Source: Rhizobium sp. Q54 (lineage in GTDB: Bacteria; Pseudomonadota; Alphaproteobacteria; ATCC43930; CGMCC-115725). Taken from it: a stretch of DNA of 64,000 bases. The notes beneath the pieces were generated by a model. That model made no database searches. It saw only the letters and a list, made by a program, of their open reading frames with translations, and was not told the DNA's origin. The position numbers were made by a program, and so were the translations under genes. The stretch is taken from assembly GCA_945861155.1 (NCBI GenBank), contig CAMATN010000005.1, positions 1 through 64,000 of the forward strand, read 5' to 3'. Below are positions 910 through 9,744 of this stretch, piece by piece (positions within the stretch are counted from its first letter, which is position 1; every line of letters begins with the position of its first letter).

Positions 910-3018
910 CTACTTCGTCGTCTTGACGTAGACGCCGTCCCACGCCGCGGGCGGGTCGGCGTGCAGCGTCGCGGCGCGCTCGGCCATCACCAACGGCGGC
1001 GAGGCGCCGACCAGATAGGGGTGGGTCACGTCGCGGCGCCAGGATGTTTCGGCTTCGGCGAAGTCGCCGGCGCGATAGCGTTCGAGCGCGGCGTTGTAGT
1101 GCGCCGGATAGGCCAGCGTGGCCGCGTCGGCCGCGCCCGTCGCCGCGACGAGCTCGTACACCGCGAGCGGCTCCTCCTTGCCCTTGACCTTGACCCAGTC
1201 GAGCTCGTTGAGCACGAAGCGATCCCTGATCGCCGCCGCGGTCGCCGGCCCGACGACGATACGACAGCCATAATCGCCGGGCACGCTTTCGAGCCGCGCG
1301 GCGATATTCACGGTCTCGCCGACCGCGGTGTAGTTGTAGCGCTTCTCGGCGCCGACATTGCCGACGACCGCGCGCCCGCTGTTGAGACCGATCTTGACCG
1401 AATAACCCGGCCGGTCTTGCGAATCCGCCTCTTCCTTGGCCCGCGTCACCGCCGCCACCGCGGCGAGCGCCGCGCGCGCCGCCGACGCGGCATGGTCCGG
1501 GTCCGGCGCCGGCGCGCCCCAGATCCCCATCACCGCGTCGCCGATAAATTTGTCGACATAGCCGCCGGTCGCCTCGACCGCCTCGACGATGATCGCGAGG
1601 TAGAAATTGGTGACCGCCATCAATTCGGTCGGGCCGACCTTGCCGGACAGCGCGGTAAAGCCCGAGAGGTCGGCGAACATGATCGTGACCTCGCGCTCCT
1701 CGCCGCCGAGACGCAGCGGCGTCTCGCTGTCGAGCAGCTGGTCGACGATCGCCGGTGCGAGGTAATGGCCAAAGGCGTGCTGCACGCGGCGGCGGCGGCG
1801 GTCTTCGATCACGAACCGCACAACATAGGCGACCGCGATCGCCGCGATCGCCGCGGCGGCCGGCAGCACGGCGGGAAACCACAGCCCGAACCCGAGCAAC
1901 ACCGGCGCCGCGGCGAGACACAGCGCGACCAGTGCGACGATCCCGAGCGTCCCCCACAGCGGCGCCAGCGAAAACCCGAGCAGCGCGCCGCCGATCGCCA
2001 TCGTCGCGGCGGCAATCGCGCGACCAACCGGCGGGACCGGGCGGACCAGGTTTCCGTTCAACACCGCCTCGATCGCCGCCGCATGGACAAACATGCCGGG
2101 CGACGTACCGCCCTCCGGGTCCGAGGCGCCGAGCCGGTCGAGCCTGCACCCGCCGATATTCGCTTCGCGGGAGACGGGCGGCGACATGAAGCGGTCGGGG
2201 CTGCGCTTCCTGTCCTCCTCCGGCAGCGTGGTGCCGATCAGCACGAGCTTGCCGGCAAAAACCTGCCGGATCGCCGCCGGATCGCGGTCGAGGCACCGCA
2301 ATACGTCGATCAGGCGATAGGCCGGCATCGCTTCGAGCGGCCGCCGCGGCGCCAGCAGCAGCCGCTCCGGCATCTCCGGCCCCTTGGCGCGGTCGAGCAA
2401 GGCGGCGGCAAAGGTCGGCAGGGTTTTGCCGTCGGCGGTTTCGACCCGCGATGCCGCGTGGCGAAATACGCCGTCGGAATCCGGGGTCAATTCGGCATAG
2501 CCGATCGCACCGGGCTCGGCCTTGCCGGCATCGGTCCGCGGGTCGAACACGGAAGCGACAAACGGCGGCGCCGGATAGGATCGGGCCGAGCGCGCCAGGA
2601 CGATTCGAGCCTTGGCGCGGGCGAGCGCCGTCAGGAAATCGCGGTCGTACTGCCCCTCGGAGCCGGGAAACCGATTGGCGGAATAGTTGAAGATGATGTC
2701 GAACCCGATCGCGCTTGCATCCGCCGCGGCCAGCCCGTCGACGATCTTTGCCCAGACCGGGCTCAGAAACACCCGCGGCAGCGCGGCAAGCTCGTCCGAA
2801 TCGAGGCTGTCGCGATCGAGCGCGATGACCGCCACGGGTTCGTCCCTGGCGCCGGGACGGCGATCGGTGACGGCCAGCGACAAATCGTAGACCAAGCCGT
2901 CGAGGAGACCCATCCCGCCGCCGGCGACAAGGCTGGCCGCCGCCGCGAGCGCCCCGAGCACCACCGTCACGATCGCCCTTCGATGGCGCCCCAAAAATGG
3001 GAAGCGACGCGATCTCAC
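910..3018 (-). CDS. CHASE2 domain-containing class III adenylate/guanylate cyclase
   Basis: This is a membrane-bound nucleotide cyclase of 702 aa. An N-terminal membrane segment (about 14-36) precedes a CHASE2 extracytoplasmic sensor (about 35-310). Three hydrophobic helices (about 326-400) follow, then a cytoplasmic class III cyclase domain (about 440-630). The cyclase carries the metal-binding aspartates in MFADLSGF and FIGDAVMGIWG, the Lys before FIGDAV that favours adenine, and YTAVGETVNIAARLE with the Asn and Arg transition-state residues. It is therefore probably an active adenylate cyclase. The start is GTG at 3018, which overlaps the stop of the FecR-like gene upstream (GTGA), so the two are probably translationally coupled. 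The signal sensed by CHASE2 is unknown. Confidence 0.9.
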   Translation of the reverse strand: MRSRRFPFLGRHRRAIVTVVLGALAAAASLVAGGGMGLLDGLVYDLSLAVTDRRPGARDEPVAVIALDRDSLDSDELAALPRVFLSPVWAKIVDGLAAADASAIGFDIIFNYSANRFPGSEGQYDRDFLTALARAKARIVLARSARSYPAPPFVASVFDPRTDAGKAEPGAIGYAELTPDSDGVFRHAASRVETADGKTLPTFAAALLDRAKGPEMPERLLLAPRRPLEAMPAYRLIDVLRCLDRDPAAIRQVFAGKLVLIGTTLPEEDRKRSPDRFMSPPVSREANIGGCRLDRLGASDPEGGTSPGMFVHAAAIEAVLNGNLVRPVPPVGRAIAAATMAIGGALLGFSLAPLWGTLGIVALVALCLAAAPVLLGFGLWFPAVLPAAAAIAAIAVAYVVRFVIEDRRRRRVQHAFGHYLAPAIVDQLLDSETPLRLGGEEREVTIMFADLSGFTALSGKVGPTELMAVTNFYLAIIVEAVEATGGYVDKFIGDAVMGIWGAPAPDPDHAASAARAALAAVAAVTRAKEEADSQDRPGYSVKIGLNSGRAVVGNVGAEKRYNYTAVGETVNIAARLESVPGDYGCRIVVGPATAAAIRDRFVLNELDWVKVKGKEEPLAVYELVAATGAADAATLAYPAHYNAALERYRAGDFAEAETSWRRDVTHPYLVGASPPLVMAERAATLHADPPAAWDGVYVKTTK

Positions 3019-3671
3019 GGGCCGCGCAGCACAACGAAGAGGCTGGATCCGGACGGGGCCGCCGCGACGAACGGGATGTCGACCGGCTCGGCGCGGTCCC
3101 CGATCGTCAGGCGCAGCACATAGCGTTCGTTGACCGCCAGCGGTGCGGCATCCGCCGGGAACCGCGCCTGACGGCCGGAGACATTGAGCCGTACCAGCGG
3201 CGCATCGAGCCGCCCTTCGGCATGGATTGCCACCGTCTTGAGCTTGTCGGTCCCCTCGCCGGTCAGGACGATCTCGCGGTTGACGGGCCAGCGCGGAGCG
3301 CTGCTCAATCCGCGCATGACCAGCCCACCCGACACCGTCCCGGCCGCGTTGGCGCTCAACCGATGAATGCGCGGACAGGGCGCGTCAATTTCGGCGACGA
3401 TCGTGCCGTCGGTCGTGAAATCGGTGCGGGTCACGGTCACGGTGCCGCCGGTCACGGTGACCATCTTGCACTTTGCATAATGCAGAAAACTCAGCTCGGC
3501 GCCGGGGGCGAGCCGGAGCGGTGCTCCCGACGCGATCTCCGACATCGCGGCGATCGCCGGAGTGGTGCTGCCGGAGAGCGCCGTCACCAGCGCCGCCGGC
3601 GGCTCGTTCGCAACCGCGAGCCCAGGCATCAGGCACAGAACGAACGATGCAGCGACAGCCGCAAACCTCAT
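3015..3671 (-). CDS. exported FecR-like beta-strand protein
   Basis: I place the start at ATG 3671 (218 aa) because GGAG lies 5 nt upstream and the N-terminus MRFAAVAASFVLCLMPGLA is a clear signal peptide; an upstream in-frame start at 3710 would bury it. The segment GAPLRLAPGAELSFLHYAKC followed by a V/T-rich strand is the usual FecR-like pattern (a bound threshold followed by beta strands). The C-terminal half looks like a second beta-rich domain. FecR-like proteins often partner CHASE2 cyclases, and here the stop overlaps the cyclase start. A role as periplasmic ligand or modulator for the CHASE2 sensor is inference. The sequence carries no catalytic motif. Confidence 0.65.
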   Translation of the reverse strand: MRFAAVAASFVLCLMPGLAVANEPPAALVTALSGSTTPAIAAMSEIASGAPLRLAPGAELSFLHYAKCKMVTVTGGTVTVTRTDFTTDGTIVAEIDAPCPRIHRLSANAAGTVSGGLVMRGLSSAPRWPVNREIVLTGEGTDKLKTVAIHAEGRLDAPLVRLNVSGRQARFPADAAPLAVNERYVLRLTIGDRAEPVDIPFVAAAPSGSSLFVVLRGP

Positions 3672-3751
3672 CGTATCTCCTAACGCGCGTGCCCGCCGAG
3701 GCGCTATCATAACCTTGGCGGCAGCCAGTGTCCCGATTTTGGAGTCTCGCC

Positions 3752-5269
3752 GTGCGGCTTGTTGCGTTCACGCGCCCGTTGCCTGGGAAAACCGCGCTGC
3801 GGATCCTGGTGCTGATGATCGCGATGCTCGGCTGCGGCGGTGTCCCGTGCCAGGCCGCCAAGCGAATAGCGCTCGTCGTCGGGAACGATTCGTACCGGCA
3901 CATCCCCGAATTGCGCCGTGCCGTCACCGATGCGGTCGCGGTCGCCTCGGCGTTGCGCGGCATTGGCTTTACCGTCCTGGTCGCGCAAAATCAGGACCGG
4001 CAGGCGATGAGCCATACGCTGCTCGCCTTCGACAGCATGATCGAGCGCGACGACGTGGCGTTCTTCTTTTTCGCCGGTCACGGGTTCGAGATAACCGGCC
4101 GCAATTACCTGTTGCCGACCGATGTGCCGCCGGCCACCGAGGGCGAGGAGGAGCTGATCAAGGATTCCTCCTTCGCCGTCGATCGGATCATCGACCGGTT
4201 CCAGGCAAAGGGCGCCCAGACCATGATCCTGGTGCTCGACGCCTGCCGCAACAACCCGTTCGCCCGACCGGGCACGCGCTCTCTCGGCGGCGGCGGCGGA
4301 TTGGTGCCGCTGGTCCCGCCGGAAGGTACCTTCGTGCTGTTTTCCGCCGGCGCCAAGCAGACCGCGCTCGATGCGCTGGGCGCCAGCGACACCGATCCCA
4401 ATTCGGTGTTCACGCGCCACTTCGTGCGCCAGCTGGCGACGCCGGGAATGACCCTGGTCCAGCTCGCCAAGCGCACCCAGGGCGAAGTCAAGCAGGTCGC
4501 GGCGACCGTCCGGCACCAGCAGACCCCGGCCTATTACGATGAGATCGTCGGCGATTACGTGCTGAATACGAATCCTGGCCAGGCTCCGGCGGGTGTGCAA
4601 ACCGCGGTGCTGCAAGCCCCCTCGCCGGACTTGCTTGCACCGCGACCCGCGCCTGCCCCGAGCGAACCAGTCAACGCGCCACTCGCCTCGTTCACCCGCA
4701 GCAACAGCGGCTGGTCCGTCGCCGTGTCCTTCATCGAGCCGGTCACCGCGATCGCCTGGCGGATCGGCGAGACCGGCGCCTTCAAGGAAACCGGCTTTCT
4801 CGATTCGCTCGATCCGCGCACGCGGCGACGGCTCGCCAATCCCGGCTTTGAACTCGACGCCGACACCCAGACAGCGCTTCTCGAAATCCGCGCGGTCGAT
4901 CAGAACGGCCGCACGCTCGGGCCGTTTCCGATCGCATTCGACCCCGGCGCCGAACTCGAACGCAGCAACCGCCGCATGCTCGAAATGACCGCCGGAAGTT
5001 GGCTGATGTTTCGCGAATACAATGGCCTGCTTCTGTATTACACGCAGCTGATGTCGTATCGCTGCGCCATTCGCGAGGTCCGGATCGGCATCGACAGCAC
5101 CGTGCCGAACCGGGTTGTCGCGCTGGGTGCGTGCGACCCGAAGCAGCCATACGCGATCCCCGAAAACGCACTGCCCTATCTGAAATTGCCCCCGGCAACC
5201 AAGATGGTTTCGGTTGAATTGACCTATCGCGACGGCAGCGTGTCGGAGACCAAGACCTTCCGTCGCTGA
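3752..5269 (+). CDS. exported caspase family (peptidase C14-like) protein
   Basis: This is a bacterial orthocaspase-type peptidase of about 505 aa. GTG 3752 is preferred as start because GGAG sits 7 nt upstream; GTG 3728 is an alternative. A hydrophobic signal segment (about 18-33) precedes AKRIALVVGNDSY, the first strand of the caspase fold. The catalytic His is His110 (FFAGHGFE) and the catalytic Cys is Cys165 (LVLDACRNNPF), the canonical dyad. The caspase domain spans about 35-260. A Pro/Ala linker and a C-terminal domain (about 310-505) of unknown fold, rich in aromatic residues, follow. It is divergent from the FecR-like/CHASE2 pair and convergent with the TPR-CHAT gene, 9 bp apart. The predicted location is the periplasm or the outer face of the membrane. 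Confidence 0.88.
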   Translation: MRLVAFTRPLPGKTALRILVLMIAMLGCGGVPCQAAKRIALVVGNDSYRHIPELRRAVTDAVAVASALRGIGFTVLVAQNQDRQAMSHTLLAFDSMIERDDVAFFFFAGHGFEITGRNYLLPTDVPPATEGEEELIKDSSFAVDRIIDRFQAKGAQTMILVLDACRNNPFARPGTRSLGGGGGLVPLVPPEGTFVLFSAGAKQTALDALGASDTDPNSVFTRHFVRQLATPGMTLVQLAKRTQGEVKQVAATVRHQQTPAYYDEIVGDYVLNTNPGQAPAGVQTAVLQAPSPDLLAPRPAPAPSEPVNAPLASFTRSNSGWSVAVSFIEPVTAIAWRIGETGAFKETGFLDSLDPRTRRRLANPGFELDADTQTALLEIRAVDQNGRTLGPFPIAFDPGAELERSNRRMLEMTAGSWLMFREYNGLLLYYTQLMSYRCAIREVRIGIDSTVPNRVVALGACDPKQPYAIPENALPYLKLPPATKMVSVELTYRDGSVSETKTFRR

Positions 5270-5278
5270 GGGTCCTGG

Positions 5279-8176
5279 TCAACCGCCATCGCCGACGACC
5301 ACAAACGGCGCCCAATAGGCCGGCCTCGCCTTGACGCCGCCCTCCTTCACCAGCGCCATCATCGACCGGCGCAGCGCTTCGGCGCGACCGATCGACGGCT
5401 CCCGCTGCAGCTCCTTGTAGGCGTGGGTCGTCAACGCGACCGCCGCTTCCGAATAGACCGGCCAATGCGACACCATCAACGCGCGCGTACCGGCCAGGAA
5501 AAAAGCCCGCGCAAGCCCGGAAAACGCCTCTTTGTCGTCTGCCGATCCGGCTGCGGTGTTGCACGACGACAGCACGATCCAATCGGCGCTGAGCCGCAAC
5601 CCGGCGATGTCGGACGCCGTCAGCAACCCGTTGTCGTTGGCGTCGTTCGCCGCTGGTGTCAGCACCAATGCCGGTTCGGCGAGGCCCTCGAGTTCGCCGG
5701 ACACCAGACCGTGCGTCGCGAAATGGACGATGGAGTAAGCGCTAAGAGCGCCCGCTTCGCTGAGGTCGAGCACGGCCTTTCTCGTCGCCTGCCCGCCCAG
5801 TAAGACATTGTCCGGCTCCACCCCGAGCGATTCGGCGATCGCGCAAAGCTCGTCGGCCGTGTCGGGCAGCGCGAACAGCTCGCGCACCGATTTCGCCCCC
5901 GGCGCTCCGGCGCGACTCGGCCGCGGCAAATCCGTTGCCATCCTTTGCGGCGCCGCGGAGGCATCCTTCGGGCAAGCCGCTTTCGAGCGCGCCAGCGCCG
6001 CCACCGCTTCGATCTGCCGTCGGTCCGCCGCCGGTATGACTTCGCTCTGTGGCCCGTCGAGCAGCGGATTGCCGATTCCGATAAACGGCTTCGTCGCCCT
6101 CCCCCGGGGAACAGTCGTCCGCAATGCGTCGAGGCTCGCGACTGAGGGCAACACTGTGATCGGCTGCCTTCGGACCAGCCACGCGGCCTTTTCGTAGCGC
6201 TCGTCCGCGGCGACGGCGCGATCGGGCGGTTCGGTGACCAGGATGTGAAGCGGCAGCGTCGCGAGCGCGCCGGTCGGCACCAGGATCAGACGCTTGCCTT
6301 CTATCAACGAGCCGAGCGTGCCGAACAGCTCCTCGTAAAGCTGGTGGCTGCGCCCGAGATCGAACGGCAGCGCCTCGCCGCGTTGAAGGTCGTCCTCGCT
6401 GTAGTTGACGCCCAAGAGCTTGAAGCAGCGATCCGCCCGGTGATCGAGCCAGCCCGTGGCGTCGAGCCCGCAGCGCAGCGCCTCGACGTGTTCGGCGATC
6501 GTCACGCTCGTCGCCGCAAGCGGCATCCACCAAGATTTTTGCCTGGTGATGAAAAAGGCGTGGATGTGCACCTGGTCGTCGGCGAAGTAGACGAGAGCCT
6601 CGTCGTTACTCAGAAGCTCCTGCACCTGTGCGACCGACAGAACCTTGGCACCGCCGAACGTGAAATAACCCGGCGAACTCTGCTCGATCTCGGTGCTGAT
6701 GGATATGAGTTCCTGTTTGAGCTGGGCCTGGCTGGTCCGATCGGAGGTCATTGCTTGACGATCGACCTGATCGGCCGAGCGCGCGAGCTGAGCGATGATC
6801 CGGGTCTCGGCGAGGTTCCATTCATCCTGCAGAGCTTGCTGCCGTCGGACTTGAGTGGCGAGGCCGGGATGGCCCGAGGTGTATCTTGTCGCCATGCGCT
6901 CGATCGCGGCTGCGGCCAGCGGGGGTACCAGCCGCTGCGCTATCTCAAAAGCGGGAAGGCCAAGTTTCGAAAACTGGCTGGTGTCGTACCAGGGCCACTC
7001 GCCACTGATCTGCAGGAAGGTGAGATAGACGATCTGGCTCAGCGTCACATTCGGAATATCGCGGCCGGCCGCGATCAGGCCCTGTGCCGCTCCGCGCCTC
7101 GCGTCGGCCGGGATCATTATCTCGGCGGCGCGGCGGATCAGCGCGTAGGCCCCCTCCCACTCTTTCTTGGCCGAGAGCAGTCGCGCACCGGTCAGGTGCA
7201 GGTGCGCGACACGGGGATGGTCGTCGCCGTAGGCGGCCTGGTCGATGCGCATCGCTTCCTTGAGCGCGCCGTCCGCCTCGTCGTACCGCGCCAGCGTGAG
7301 GTACATCCCGGCGAGATTGTTGAGGCGCGTCGCCAGGCGCGGGCTGTCGGGTCCGAACATCGCGCGGTCGAGGTCGAGCGAGCGCCGATACAGCGGCTCG
7401 GCCTTTCCGTAATCTCCCTGGTCTTCAAGCAGCGTTGCGAGGTTGTTGAGCGCGATCCCCAATCGCGGGTGGGGCGCTGCCGGCGTAGACAGCCCTTCCA
7501 ATATCGCGACCGCCTGTTCCTGCAGCGGGCGGGCCTCGTCAAGCCGGCGCTGCCTCTTGTAGAGAATTCCCAGATTGCCGAGCGCAACCGCCAAGCGCGC
7601 GCCGTTCTGCGCCGGCTGCTGCTTGAATTCGGCAATGGCCGCGAGGTAGAGCCGCTCCGCATCCCGAACCCGATTGAGCCGCTCCATCGCGGCGGCGAAA
7701 TTGGAGAGCGTCGCACCTCGCTCGAATATCGTCGGCTGCCGATCGAAGCTGGCGAGCGCCCGGTGCAACAGCTCCGCGGCCTCGCCGAGATTGTCCTTGT
7801 CAAGCAGCACCAGCGCGAGATTGGCCGTCCGCGTGACAACATCGGGATGGTCCGGACCGAGTGCCGCCAGCGTGATCGCCAGCGATTGCCGCAACAGCTG
7901 CTCGGCCCGGTCGAGCGATCCGGTGAATTGCAGAAACGTCGCGAGGCCGTTCAGAGCACCCGCGTATCGCGGGTCGGCCTCGCCGTATTGTTCACGGTTT
8001 AGCGCGACGATGCGCTCCGCCACCGGGATCCCGTCGAGATAGCGGCCTGTGTTGTAGGCCGCGTCGGATTGCGCCACCAGGGCGCCGAGTTCGTGCTCCG
8101 CTGTCGATGCCTGCCACGCAAAAGCGATCCCGGCCGCTATGACCGCGAGCAGCAATACAACTCGGCGTCCCGGCAT
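5279..8176 (-). CDS. TPR and CHAT domain protein, membrane-anchored caspase-HetF-like protease
   Basis: This is a 965-aa protein from ATG 8176. An in-frame extension to 8296 would overlap the dioxygenase gene and bury the hydrophobic N-terminus. The first about 20 residues after MPGRR form a signal anchor or signal peptide. Kinesin-light-chain-type TPR repeats cover about 40-330 (repeated ALNNLATLLEDQGDYGKAEP-like units). The C-terminal CHAT domain (about 620-965) has its His in HFATHG (about 820) and Cys in LSSCNTAAG (about 870), the dyad of caspase/separase-like proteases. Its start lies only 8 bp after the TauD-type gene, without an obvious Shine-Dalgarno, which suggests coupling. It is likely a scaffolded protease that cleaves partner proteins; the target is unknown. 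Confidence 0.88.
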   Translation of the reverse strand: MPGRRVVLLLAVIAAGIAFAWQASTAEHELGALVAQSDAAYNTGRYLDGIPVAERIVALNREQYGEADPRYAGALNGLATFLQFTGSLDRAEQLLRQSLAITLAALGPDHPDVVTRTANLALVLLDKDNLGEAAELLHRALASFDRQPTIFERGATLSNFAAAMERLNRVRDAERLYLAAIAEFKQQPAQNGARLAVALGNLGILYKRQRRLDEARPLQEQAVAILEGLSTPAAPHPRLGIALNNLATLLEDQGDYGKAEPLYRRSLDLDRAMFGPDSPRLATRLNNLAGMYLTLARYDEADGALKEAMRIDQAAYGDDHPRVAHLHLTGARLLSAKKEWEGAYALIRRAAEIMIPADARRGAAQGLIAAGRDIPNVTLSQIVYLTFLQISGEWPWYDTSQFSKLGLPAFEIAQRLVPPLAAAAIERMATRYTSGHPGLATQVRRQQALQDEWNLAETRIIAQLARSADQVDRQAMTSDRTSQAQLKQELISISTEIEQSSPGYFTFGGAKVLSVAQVQELLSNDEALVYFADDQVHIHAFFITRQKSWWMPLAATSVTIAEHVEALRCGLDATGWLDHRADRCFKLLGVNYSEDDLQRGEALPFDLGRSHQLYEELFGTLGSLIEGKRLILVPTGALATLPLHILVTEPPDRAVAADERYEKAAWLVRRQPITVLPSVASLDALRTTVPRGRATKPFIGIGNPLLDGPQSEVIPAADRRQIEAVAALARSKAACPKDASAAPQRMATDLPRPSRAGAPGAKSVRELFALPDTADELCAIAESLGVEPDNVLLGGQATRKAVLDLSEAGALSAYSIVHFATHGLVSGELEGLAEPALVLTPAANDANDNGLLTASDIAGLRLSADWIVLSSCNTAAGSADDKEAFSGLARAFFLAGTRALMVSHWPVYSEAAVALTTHAYKELQREPSIGRAEALRRSMMALVKEGGVKARPAYWAPFVVVGDGG

Positions 8177-8184
8177 TCTAACGA

Positions 8185-9027
8185 TTAGAACGGCGCCCTC
8201 AAGTCGGCGGGGAAACTGATCCCGACCCGCCGCATCAGGCGCGGGAAATGGTCGGGGAACGGGTCGCGGCGGTGCATCGTCGCGGCGTTGTCCCACAGCA
8301 CCAGATCGCCGACCCGCCAGTGATGCGCATAGACGAATTGCGGCGCGGTTGCGTGGCGGCGCAATTCATCGAGCAGATCGAGGCTGTCGGCCTCCGACAT
8401 CCCGTCGATCCGGGCAGTGTGGTTCATGCTGAAATACAGCGCCTTCTCGCCGGCGAGCGGGTGCGTCCGCACCAGCGGATGGACGGCCTCGGGCGCCCGT
8501 TGGCGCTGTTCCTCGGTCAATTGAATGCCGACCCGGCGATCGGCGGTGGCGGCCGAATGCACCGCCCGCATTCCCTCGACCCGCGCCTTCAACGCGGCCG
8601 GCAACGCGGAATAGGCGGTGCCGAGATCGCAGAACCAAGTATCGCCGCCCTCCGGCGTGACCTCGACCGCGTAGAGCATCGTGCCCGCGGTCGGCTGCGC
8701 CATGAAGATCTGGTCCATGTGCCAGTTCAGCTCCTGGTTGCCGAGCCGGCCGATCGGCTCCCCGTTCTCCTTCTTGTTCGACACCAGCAGCACCTCGCGG
8801 CGCCCGACAATGCGGGCTTGCCGCAGATGGATCTCAACGTCGCCAAGGCGCTGGGCGAAATCGACGAGACCGTCCTCGTCAAGATGCTGATCGTGAAACA
8901 CCAGCACCTTGTGCGCGAGCCAGGCGGCCTTGATCGCATCGGTCGCGGCATCGTCGAGGCGGCTCAGATCGACCCCGTCGATCTCGCCGCAAAAGCTCGG
9001 CGCCAAACGGCGCGCGGTCATGGCCAT
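8185..9027 (-). CDS. TauD/TfdA family 2-oxoglutarate/Fe(II)-dependent dioxygenase
   Basis: This is a cytosolic non-heme iron dioxygenase of 280 aa. ATG 9027 is chosen because GGAG sits 6 nt upstream; a TTG at 9039 is less likely. The iron-binding facial triad is visible as WHMDQIF (His about 103, Asp about 105) and a distal His in TMHRRDPF (about 251), followed by the Arg-rich tail that binds 2-oxoglutarate. The family hydroxylates taurine, alkylsulfonates, 2,4-D-type acids or carnitine-like compounds; no substrate can be assigned here. It is the first gene of a probable two-gene unit with the TPR-CHAT gene, which is an odd pairing. Confidence 0.88.
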   Translation of the reverse strand: MAMTARRLAPSFCGEIDGVDLSRLDDAATDAIKAAWLAHKVLVFHDQHLDEDGLVDFAQRLGDVEIHLRQARIVGRREVLLVSNKKENGEPIGRLGNQELNWHMDQIFMAQPTAGTMLYAVEVTPEGGDTWFCDLGTAYSALPAALKARVEGMRAVHSAATADRRVGIQLTEEQRQRAPEAVHPLVRTHPLAGEKALYFSMNHTARIDGMSEADSLDLLDELRRHATAPQFVYAHHWRVGDLVLWDNAATMHRRDPFPDHFPRLMRRVGISFPADLRAPF

Positions 9028-9078
9028 CAAATTCTCCAAAGGAATGGACCGGTCGCCGCGATTATAGGCGGTTTTCCG

Positions 9079-9744
9079 CTAGAAGCGGACGCCGATGCGG
9101 GCGCCGACCTCGTTCAGGCTTTGATTCTGACGCAGCAGGCCGGCGTTCGAGACATGATCGAGGTAGACCGAGATCTCGTATCCGGGGGTAATGAGATAGC
9201 CCAGCTCGAAGGCTTCGCGGAACAGCACGTGCGAGCCGAGGCTCTTACGGTCGGGTTGCCGGGCGATCTTCTGGCCGTCGTTGAAGCCGGGACCGAAAAA
9301 GATGCCGAAATTGATCCCGTCGCCCGGCCTGAGGACATCGCGGGCCAGCTGCCAGGTCCAGGTCGCGCCGAGATAATACTGGTTGGTGAAGCCTGCGGTG
9401 TTGAACACGGCTCCCAGTGTCGGGCGCGGCTGCACCATCCAGCCCAGATACCAGGGAAGCTGCGCCACCCATGCATCGGCCACCGGCGACTGAAAGATCA
9501 CCTCGGGGTTGATGTCGACACCGCTTTCCTTGCCGCCGAGAAAATGCACGTCGTGCGCCAGAATCCCGAATTTGAATTCGCTATAGGTCACGTTCTGCGC
9601 CAGGGCGCTGCCCGGCACCATGACTGCCGCCATGACTGACGCCACCACCGCTGCCGTGGCGGCGAGGCCCAGCGCCGATCCGCGCTTGCGCCGCGCTTTT
9701 GCTGAGGGACGGTGTCCCTGCCTCGCGCCCATTCTGCACCCCAT
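9079..9744 (-). CDS. PagL-like lipid A 3-O-deacylase (acyloxyacyl hydrolase family)
   Basis: This is an outer-membrane beta-barrel hydrolase of up to 221 aa. A basic N-terminus and a hydrophobic segment ending SALA-QNV form the signal peptide (cleaved near residue 49-50). The C-terminal part YLDHVSNAG contains the H-x-S-N-A-G motif that carries the PagL His/Ser catalytic pair (His197, Ser199), with a Glu at 212 as the third member, and the protein ends in Phe as barrel proteins do. PagL enzymes remove the 3-O acyl chain of lipid A and so remodel LPS. Start choice between ATG 9744 and ATG 9732 is uncertain. The next gene upstream on the same strand is a lipid-kinase-like gene. Confidence 0.8.
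   Translation of the reverse strand: MGCRMGARQGHRPSAKARRKRGSALGLAATAAVVASVMAAVMVPGSALAQNVTYSEFKFGILAHDVHFLGGKESGVDINPEVIFQSPVADAWVAQLPWYLGWMVQPRPTLGAVFNTAGFTNQYYLGATWTWQLARDVLRPGDGINFGIFFGPGFNDGQKIARQPDRKSLGSHVLFREAFELGYLITPGYEISVYLDHVSNAGLLRQNQSLNEVGARIGVRF

Follow-up and report, generated by a model that had tools for sequence, protein, structure and literature searches.

For most CHASE2 receptors, neither the ligand nor the mode of activation is known. In Campylobacterota, genes for a CHASE2 cyclase, a FecR-domain protein, a TPR protein and a phosphodiesterase form a cluster that has been proposed to act as one pathway (PMC9239204). Sinorhizobium meliloti possesses the CHASE2 cyclases CyaD1, CyaD2 and CyaK, alongside the outer-membrane protein NsrA and Clr (PMC13001267, PMC5498481). 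A Burkholderiales operon, BiofilmReg, pairs a LysM-FecR protein with a CHASE2 histidine kinase (PMC5192318), and Trichodesmium encodes a metacaspase-CHASE2 fusion (PMC2853523, PMC3501461). The CHAT proteases characterised so far, Craspase among them, act in the cytoplasm.

The locus analysed here lies in a 64,000-nucleotide stretch of Rhizobium sp. Q54 DNA (the window), and places a CHASE2 cyclase beside a small protein and two caspase-clan proteases, all three predicted to be exported (Table 1). An earlier, sequence-only reading had described four linked genes at 910–8176. All four open reading frames are present and intact, and its domain calls were upheld by Pfam: CHASE2 (1.4e-25) and Guanylate_cyc (2e-22) in the cyclase, Peptidase_C14 (7.3e-27) in the caspase, and CHAT (1.3e-52) together with TPRs in the largest protein. 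The proteases do face each other as that reading had it, tail-to-tail, with the caspase ending at 5269 and the CHAT at 5279. The cyclase and the small exported gene overlap at the GTGA of 3015–3018. Eight bases separate the TauD stop codon from the CHAT start, and the opposite-strand caspase lies between the CHAT gene and the small gene/cyclase pair. The divergent intergenic region contains a sigma-70-like sequence on the minus strand (3734–3706; consensus match only), and no CRP-type palindrome was found in the locus. Because the window begins at base 1 of contig C5, sequence more than 909 bases downstream of the cyclase is cut off. No plasmid relatives were found at 1e-40. A phage origin was considered and rejected, as PHROGs gave only general cyclase-domain matches and a weak TPR match.

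Table 1. Features of the locus and its flank, in window coordinates.
Feature	Position	Strand	Basis
CHASE2 class III cyclase, predicted adenylate type, 702 aa	910..3018	-	Pfam, transmembrane segments, catalytic residues
Small all-beta protein (predicted), predicted exported, 218 aa, two-cysteine family	3015..3671	-	signal peptide MRFAAVAASFVLCLMPGLAVA
Intergenic region, divergent small exported gene versus caspase	3672..3751	.	
Predicted exported caspase (Peptidase_C14, paracaspase-like fold)	3752..5269 (ORF from GTG 3728)	+	
TPR-CHAT protease, 965 aa, N-terminal hydrophobic export/anchor segment	5279..8176	-	Pfam
TauD-type dioxygenase directly upstream of CHAT gene, with adjoining PagL-like lipid A deacylase	8185-9744		

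Within the cyclase, the CHASE2 domain (residues 30–338) precedes the cyclase domain (442–617). The latter retains the metal-binding aspartate pair (D450 and D494), the Lys/Thr specificity pair (K490 and T564) and the Asn/Arg residues (N571 and R575). K490 and T564 align with the Lys/Thr of Pseudomonas CyaB and not with the Glu/Gly of Synechocystis Cya2. In class III cyclases, the Lys/Thr pair denotes adenylate-type (cAMP) specificity. K490/T564 thus predict a class III enzyme of the adenylate type with cAMP as its product. Neither a cNMP-gated Pycsar effector nor a cAMP phosphodiesterase was present in the scanned neighbours (by Pfam for the latter), on a contig that stops 909 bases beyond the cyclase on its downstream side.

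The small protein starts at ATG 3671, with AGGAG just before it. Members of its two-cysteine family are encoded upstream of CHASE2 cyclases across many alphaproteobacterial families, and its C68 and C99 are invariant in 20 relatives. Structure prediction gave an all-beta model (mean pLDDT 81, pTM 0.52), which had no significant match in the PDB. The label that did not hold up is "FecR-like", which had been given to this protein: no FecR Pfam match was obtained for it even at E = 10, nor for the five relatives scanned, and a six-frame search of its own genome with PF04773 (E up to 10) missed it while recovering two other FecR genes. Profile-profile comparison with true FecR sequences gave a negligible probability of 3.4%, and comparison with one single FecR sequence gave 28.6%. 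None of the Pfam, own-genome, PDB profile, fold and profile-profile comparisons showed membership of the FecR family. What the protein shares with FecR is positional, namely a signal peptide and a gene adjoining a CHASE2 sensor, and is not a defining sequence feature. Of the 76 CHASE2 cyclases without the two-cysteine protein, 25 have a true FecR no more than 2.5 kb away, as do none of those with it. Given the failed FecR matches and this distribution, we treat the small protein as a putative replacement in the FecR slot, a FecR by position but not demonstrably one.

Both proteases have intact active sites at the residues previously proposed. The caspase likely starts at GTG 3752, which has GGAG upstream, and its dyad is His110/Cys165 from that codon (118/173 from GTG 3728); the CHAT dyad is His822/Cys872. 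These positions are invariant in 17 caspases and 13 CHATs, respectively, mostly from small-gene/cyclase loci. The caspase belongs to the caspase fold, with MALT1 as its best solved match, and carries a C-terminal domain of approximately 190 aa of unknown family. Another small-gene/cyclase locus, L095 of Roseibium aggregatum, has two caspases, and one caspase there has a peptidoglycan-binding domain. No Cas7-11/gRAMP partner gene lies beside the CHAT, whose neighbours are the caspase, TauD and PagL. A signal segment in the caspase and a hydrophobic N terminus in the CHAT had already been noted, and signal-like segments were found in both. With few exceptions, the small protein's relatives, the caspases and the CHATs all start with such a segment, and a lipobox is present in four CHATs (L168, L169, L182 and L189); segments and lipoboxes alike were called from sequence by a simple script rather than by a trained signal-peptide predictor. 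The small protein, caspase and CHAT are accordingly predicted to be exported, and probably share the periplasm with the CHASE2 sensor.

Co-location of protease, small gene and cyclase is non-random in many families. Among the loci examined, 56 have the small gene immediately upstream of a CHASE2 cyclase. A CHAT or caspase gene was located within 6 kb in 18 of 45 small-gene loci compared with 3 of 48 CHASE2 cyclases lacking that gene (loci with 3 kb or more of sequence on each side, the window itself left out; Fisher p = 1e-4) and with none of 40 such cyclases, among the matches listed, in named genomes from many phyla (p = 1.5e-6 against the 18 of 45); both p-values treat loci as independent, and kin are included (four of family f31, three Stappiaceae and many Bradyrhizobium). 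The second comparison is the cleaner, because a few of the 48 loci were fetched for having a protease. Across 387 alphaproteobacterial genomes there were 68 cyclase hits, 13 of which had a CHAT within 6 kb; the expectation was 0.26, assuming 4.5 Mb genomes. CHATs were present in 39 of 61 genomes with the cyclase and 39 of 326 without it (raw counts, uncorrected for genome size). Shadow ORFs and Bradyrhizobium synteny aside, no other non-core family neighbours these operons as often as CHAT and caspase, and about ten families have a CHAT next to the cyclase. Neither protease is nearby in more than half of the small-gene operons.

The usual unit combines the small exported protein and the cyclase with either a CHAT or a caspase. 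In several genomes, CHAT, small gene and cyclase make up a single closely spaced operon; L173 and L182 are same-strand runs of this kind. A second subtype comprises CHAT, a different exported protein of 226–236 aa and a CHASE2 cyclase on the same strand (L213, L214, L228 and L233), with gaps of 7–10 bases in L228 and the same spacing in L229; the two middle proteins scanned had no Pfam match. Elsewhere the parts of the locus occur together well above chance, but the full set of four was seen in only two genomes, that of the window and G410 (L189); in the latter, caspase and CHAT likewise meet tail-to-tail although the order of the set differs. In one family, an ORF of approximately 343 aa without a Pfam match is situated between the caspase and small gene (L178:6338-7366, with equivalents in L174, L175 and L193). 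In Betaproteobacteria, CHASE2-Ser/Thr kinase proteins are encoded near CHASE2 cyclases (L124:4554-7403 and L103:4824-7370).

Conservation within the genus is partial. Genome G023 keeps the caspase (69%) and the small protein (58%), along with part of the cyclase where a contig ends, and has a second caspase, but its whole genome contains no CHAT. A separate locus of G023 (L028:4645-6681) encodes a small two-cysteine protein, a 140-aa unknown protein and a caspase on one strand; no cyclase was detected on this short contig. In the genome of the window itself, another locus on contig C90 (L033: 2579-13212) encodes a two-partner-secretion (TPS) exoprotein, a CHASE2 cyclase, a TPR-CHAT, a DUF928 protein and a ShlB-type transporter, and adjoins an FG-GAP/cadherin-like protein. 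Elsewhere, a TPS exoprotein of 2337 aa, which carries a caspase domain at its C terminus, is encoded downstream of a small gene, cyclase and ShlB (L192:12004-19014). The C90 and L192 loci support a cell-surface setting, and also the alternative that the proteases are effectors.

Our preferred reading, which we hold tentatively and at nearly an even chance, is that the locus encodes an envelope signalling module in which the caspase-clan proteases act on the small protein/CHASE2 pair and so change cAMP. The small two-cysteine protein and the CHASE2 adenylate cyclase would form a translationally coupled sensor pair at its core, and the exported caspase and TPR-CHAT would be periplasmic proteases acting on this pair. 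A protease would be activated by a cue at the envelope or surface, probably sensed through the TPR repeats or the caspase C-terminal domain. Its cleavage of either the CHASE2 region or the small exported protein would then lead the cyclase domain to alter its cytoplasmic cAMP output. We infer the proteolysis, its substrate, its direction from protease to cyclase, the dependence of cAMP on it and the cue, outside-in proteolytic signalling being the most economical scheme because protease, small protein and CHASE2 would share the periplasm and only the cyclase would catalyse in the cytoplasm. Given how many alphaproteobacterial families have such pairings, these may represent an undescribed protease-linked envelope signalling module. 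That there is a whole widespread, undescribed class, in which periplasmic CHATs or caspases, sometimes TPS-fused, turn a surface event into cAMP through an adaptor and a CHASE2 cyclase, is conceivable but somewhat doubtful.

The same proteins could be wired differently. It is rather unlikely, though worth serious consideration, that the proteases are effectors that process or release surface proteins, such as TPS adhesins, while the CHASE2 cyclase monitors or controls the surface system through cAMP. A TPS exoprotein, a ShlB or both occur beside CHASE2 cyclases in L033, L035, L135, L150, L155, L192 and L211, and the caspase of L192 is itself fused to the exoprotein, in a run of small gene, cyclase, ShlB and TPS-caspase. 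The locus in the window has neither TPS nor ShlB, however, the sole ShlB-type POTRA match in the genome being that on C90, and only 3 of 45 small-gene loci have such genes. Far harder to sustain is an anti-phage or abortive-infection role with a Pycsar-like cyclase and a suicidal caspase, which we consider highly improbable. PADLOC did match the caspase to a caspase model and the cyclase domain to its models of Pycsar cyclases (best 4.7e-33), yet here the cyclase is a transmembrane receptor of the CHASE2 type and its partners are predicted to be exported. The neighbours scanned, TauD and PagL, include neither a Pycsar effector nor a defence partner, and the phage response suggested by the sequence-only reading was not borne out.

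A further question is whether the CHAT belongs at all. That only small gene, cyclase and caspase go together, with the CHAT accompanying TauD or standing alone, is improbable in our estimation, although it would fit the CHAT-free set in G023 and the short TauD-CHAT spacing. It would also fit the phylogeny. A 22-sequence tree had given a single co-inherited CHAT clade (97/94), but this broke up with 82 sequences and was abandoned: the cyclase-linked CHATs cluster but do not make up a single clade (6 changes or more), and that of the window falls outside the main linked group, with an unlinked CHAT (weak support). Its link to the cyclase may therefore be independent or incidental, and the CHAT is the least certain member of the locus. 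On the other side stand the rank of CHAT among the two commonest non-core operon neighbours, its position beside the cyclase across those ten or so families, and gene order: the minus-strand succession of CHAT, small gene and cyclase is that of L037, L171, L173 and L182. The window may thus represent the common operon with the caspase interposed.

Should the signalling module prove correct, the recurrent operon of CHAT, exported adaptor and CHASE2 cyclase offers a testable path by which proteolysis at the envelope could reach cAMP, and would give caspase relatives in bacteria a function beyond cell death and CRISPR. The literature searched, mostly open-access, did not contain "CHASE2 domain" and "CHAT domain" together, which is weak evidence of novelty. 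The earlier statement that no such system had been described therefore holds in part: we found no description of coupling to an exported CHAT or caspase, but CHASE2-FecR-cyclase clusters are already known (PMC9239204). The Campylobacterota cluster likewise has a CHASE2 cyclase, an exported protein and a TPR protein adjacent to one another; in contrast, no CHAT or caspase is reported there (PMC9239204), the small protein of the window is not detectably a FecR, and no phosphodiesterase is among its Pfam-scanned neighbours, the contig ending nearby. The S. meliloti enzymes are also alphaproteobacterial CHASE2 adenylate cyclases and raise cAMP upon an extracellular signal, whereas the adjacent exported caspase-clan protease of the window has no mention in the portions of those reports available to us (PMC13001267, PMC5498481). 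BiofilmReg similarly pairs an exported protein, there a FecR, with a CHASE2 sensor, but its output is a histidine kinase and it lacks a protease (PMC5192318). The Trichodesmium protein joins caspase and CHASE2 in one functional unit, although as a single fused protein with a predicted cytoplasmic caspase and no cyclase (PMC2853523, PMC3501461). Finally, Craspase shares the TPR and CHAT protease architecture; its partner is CRISPR Cas7-11, whereas the CHAT of the window has an export segment and is encoded near a sensor cyclase (PMC9729208, PMC9935389).
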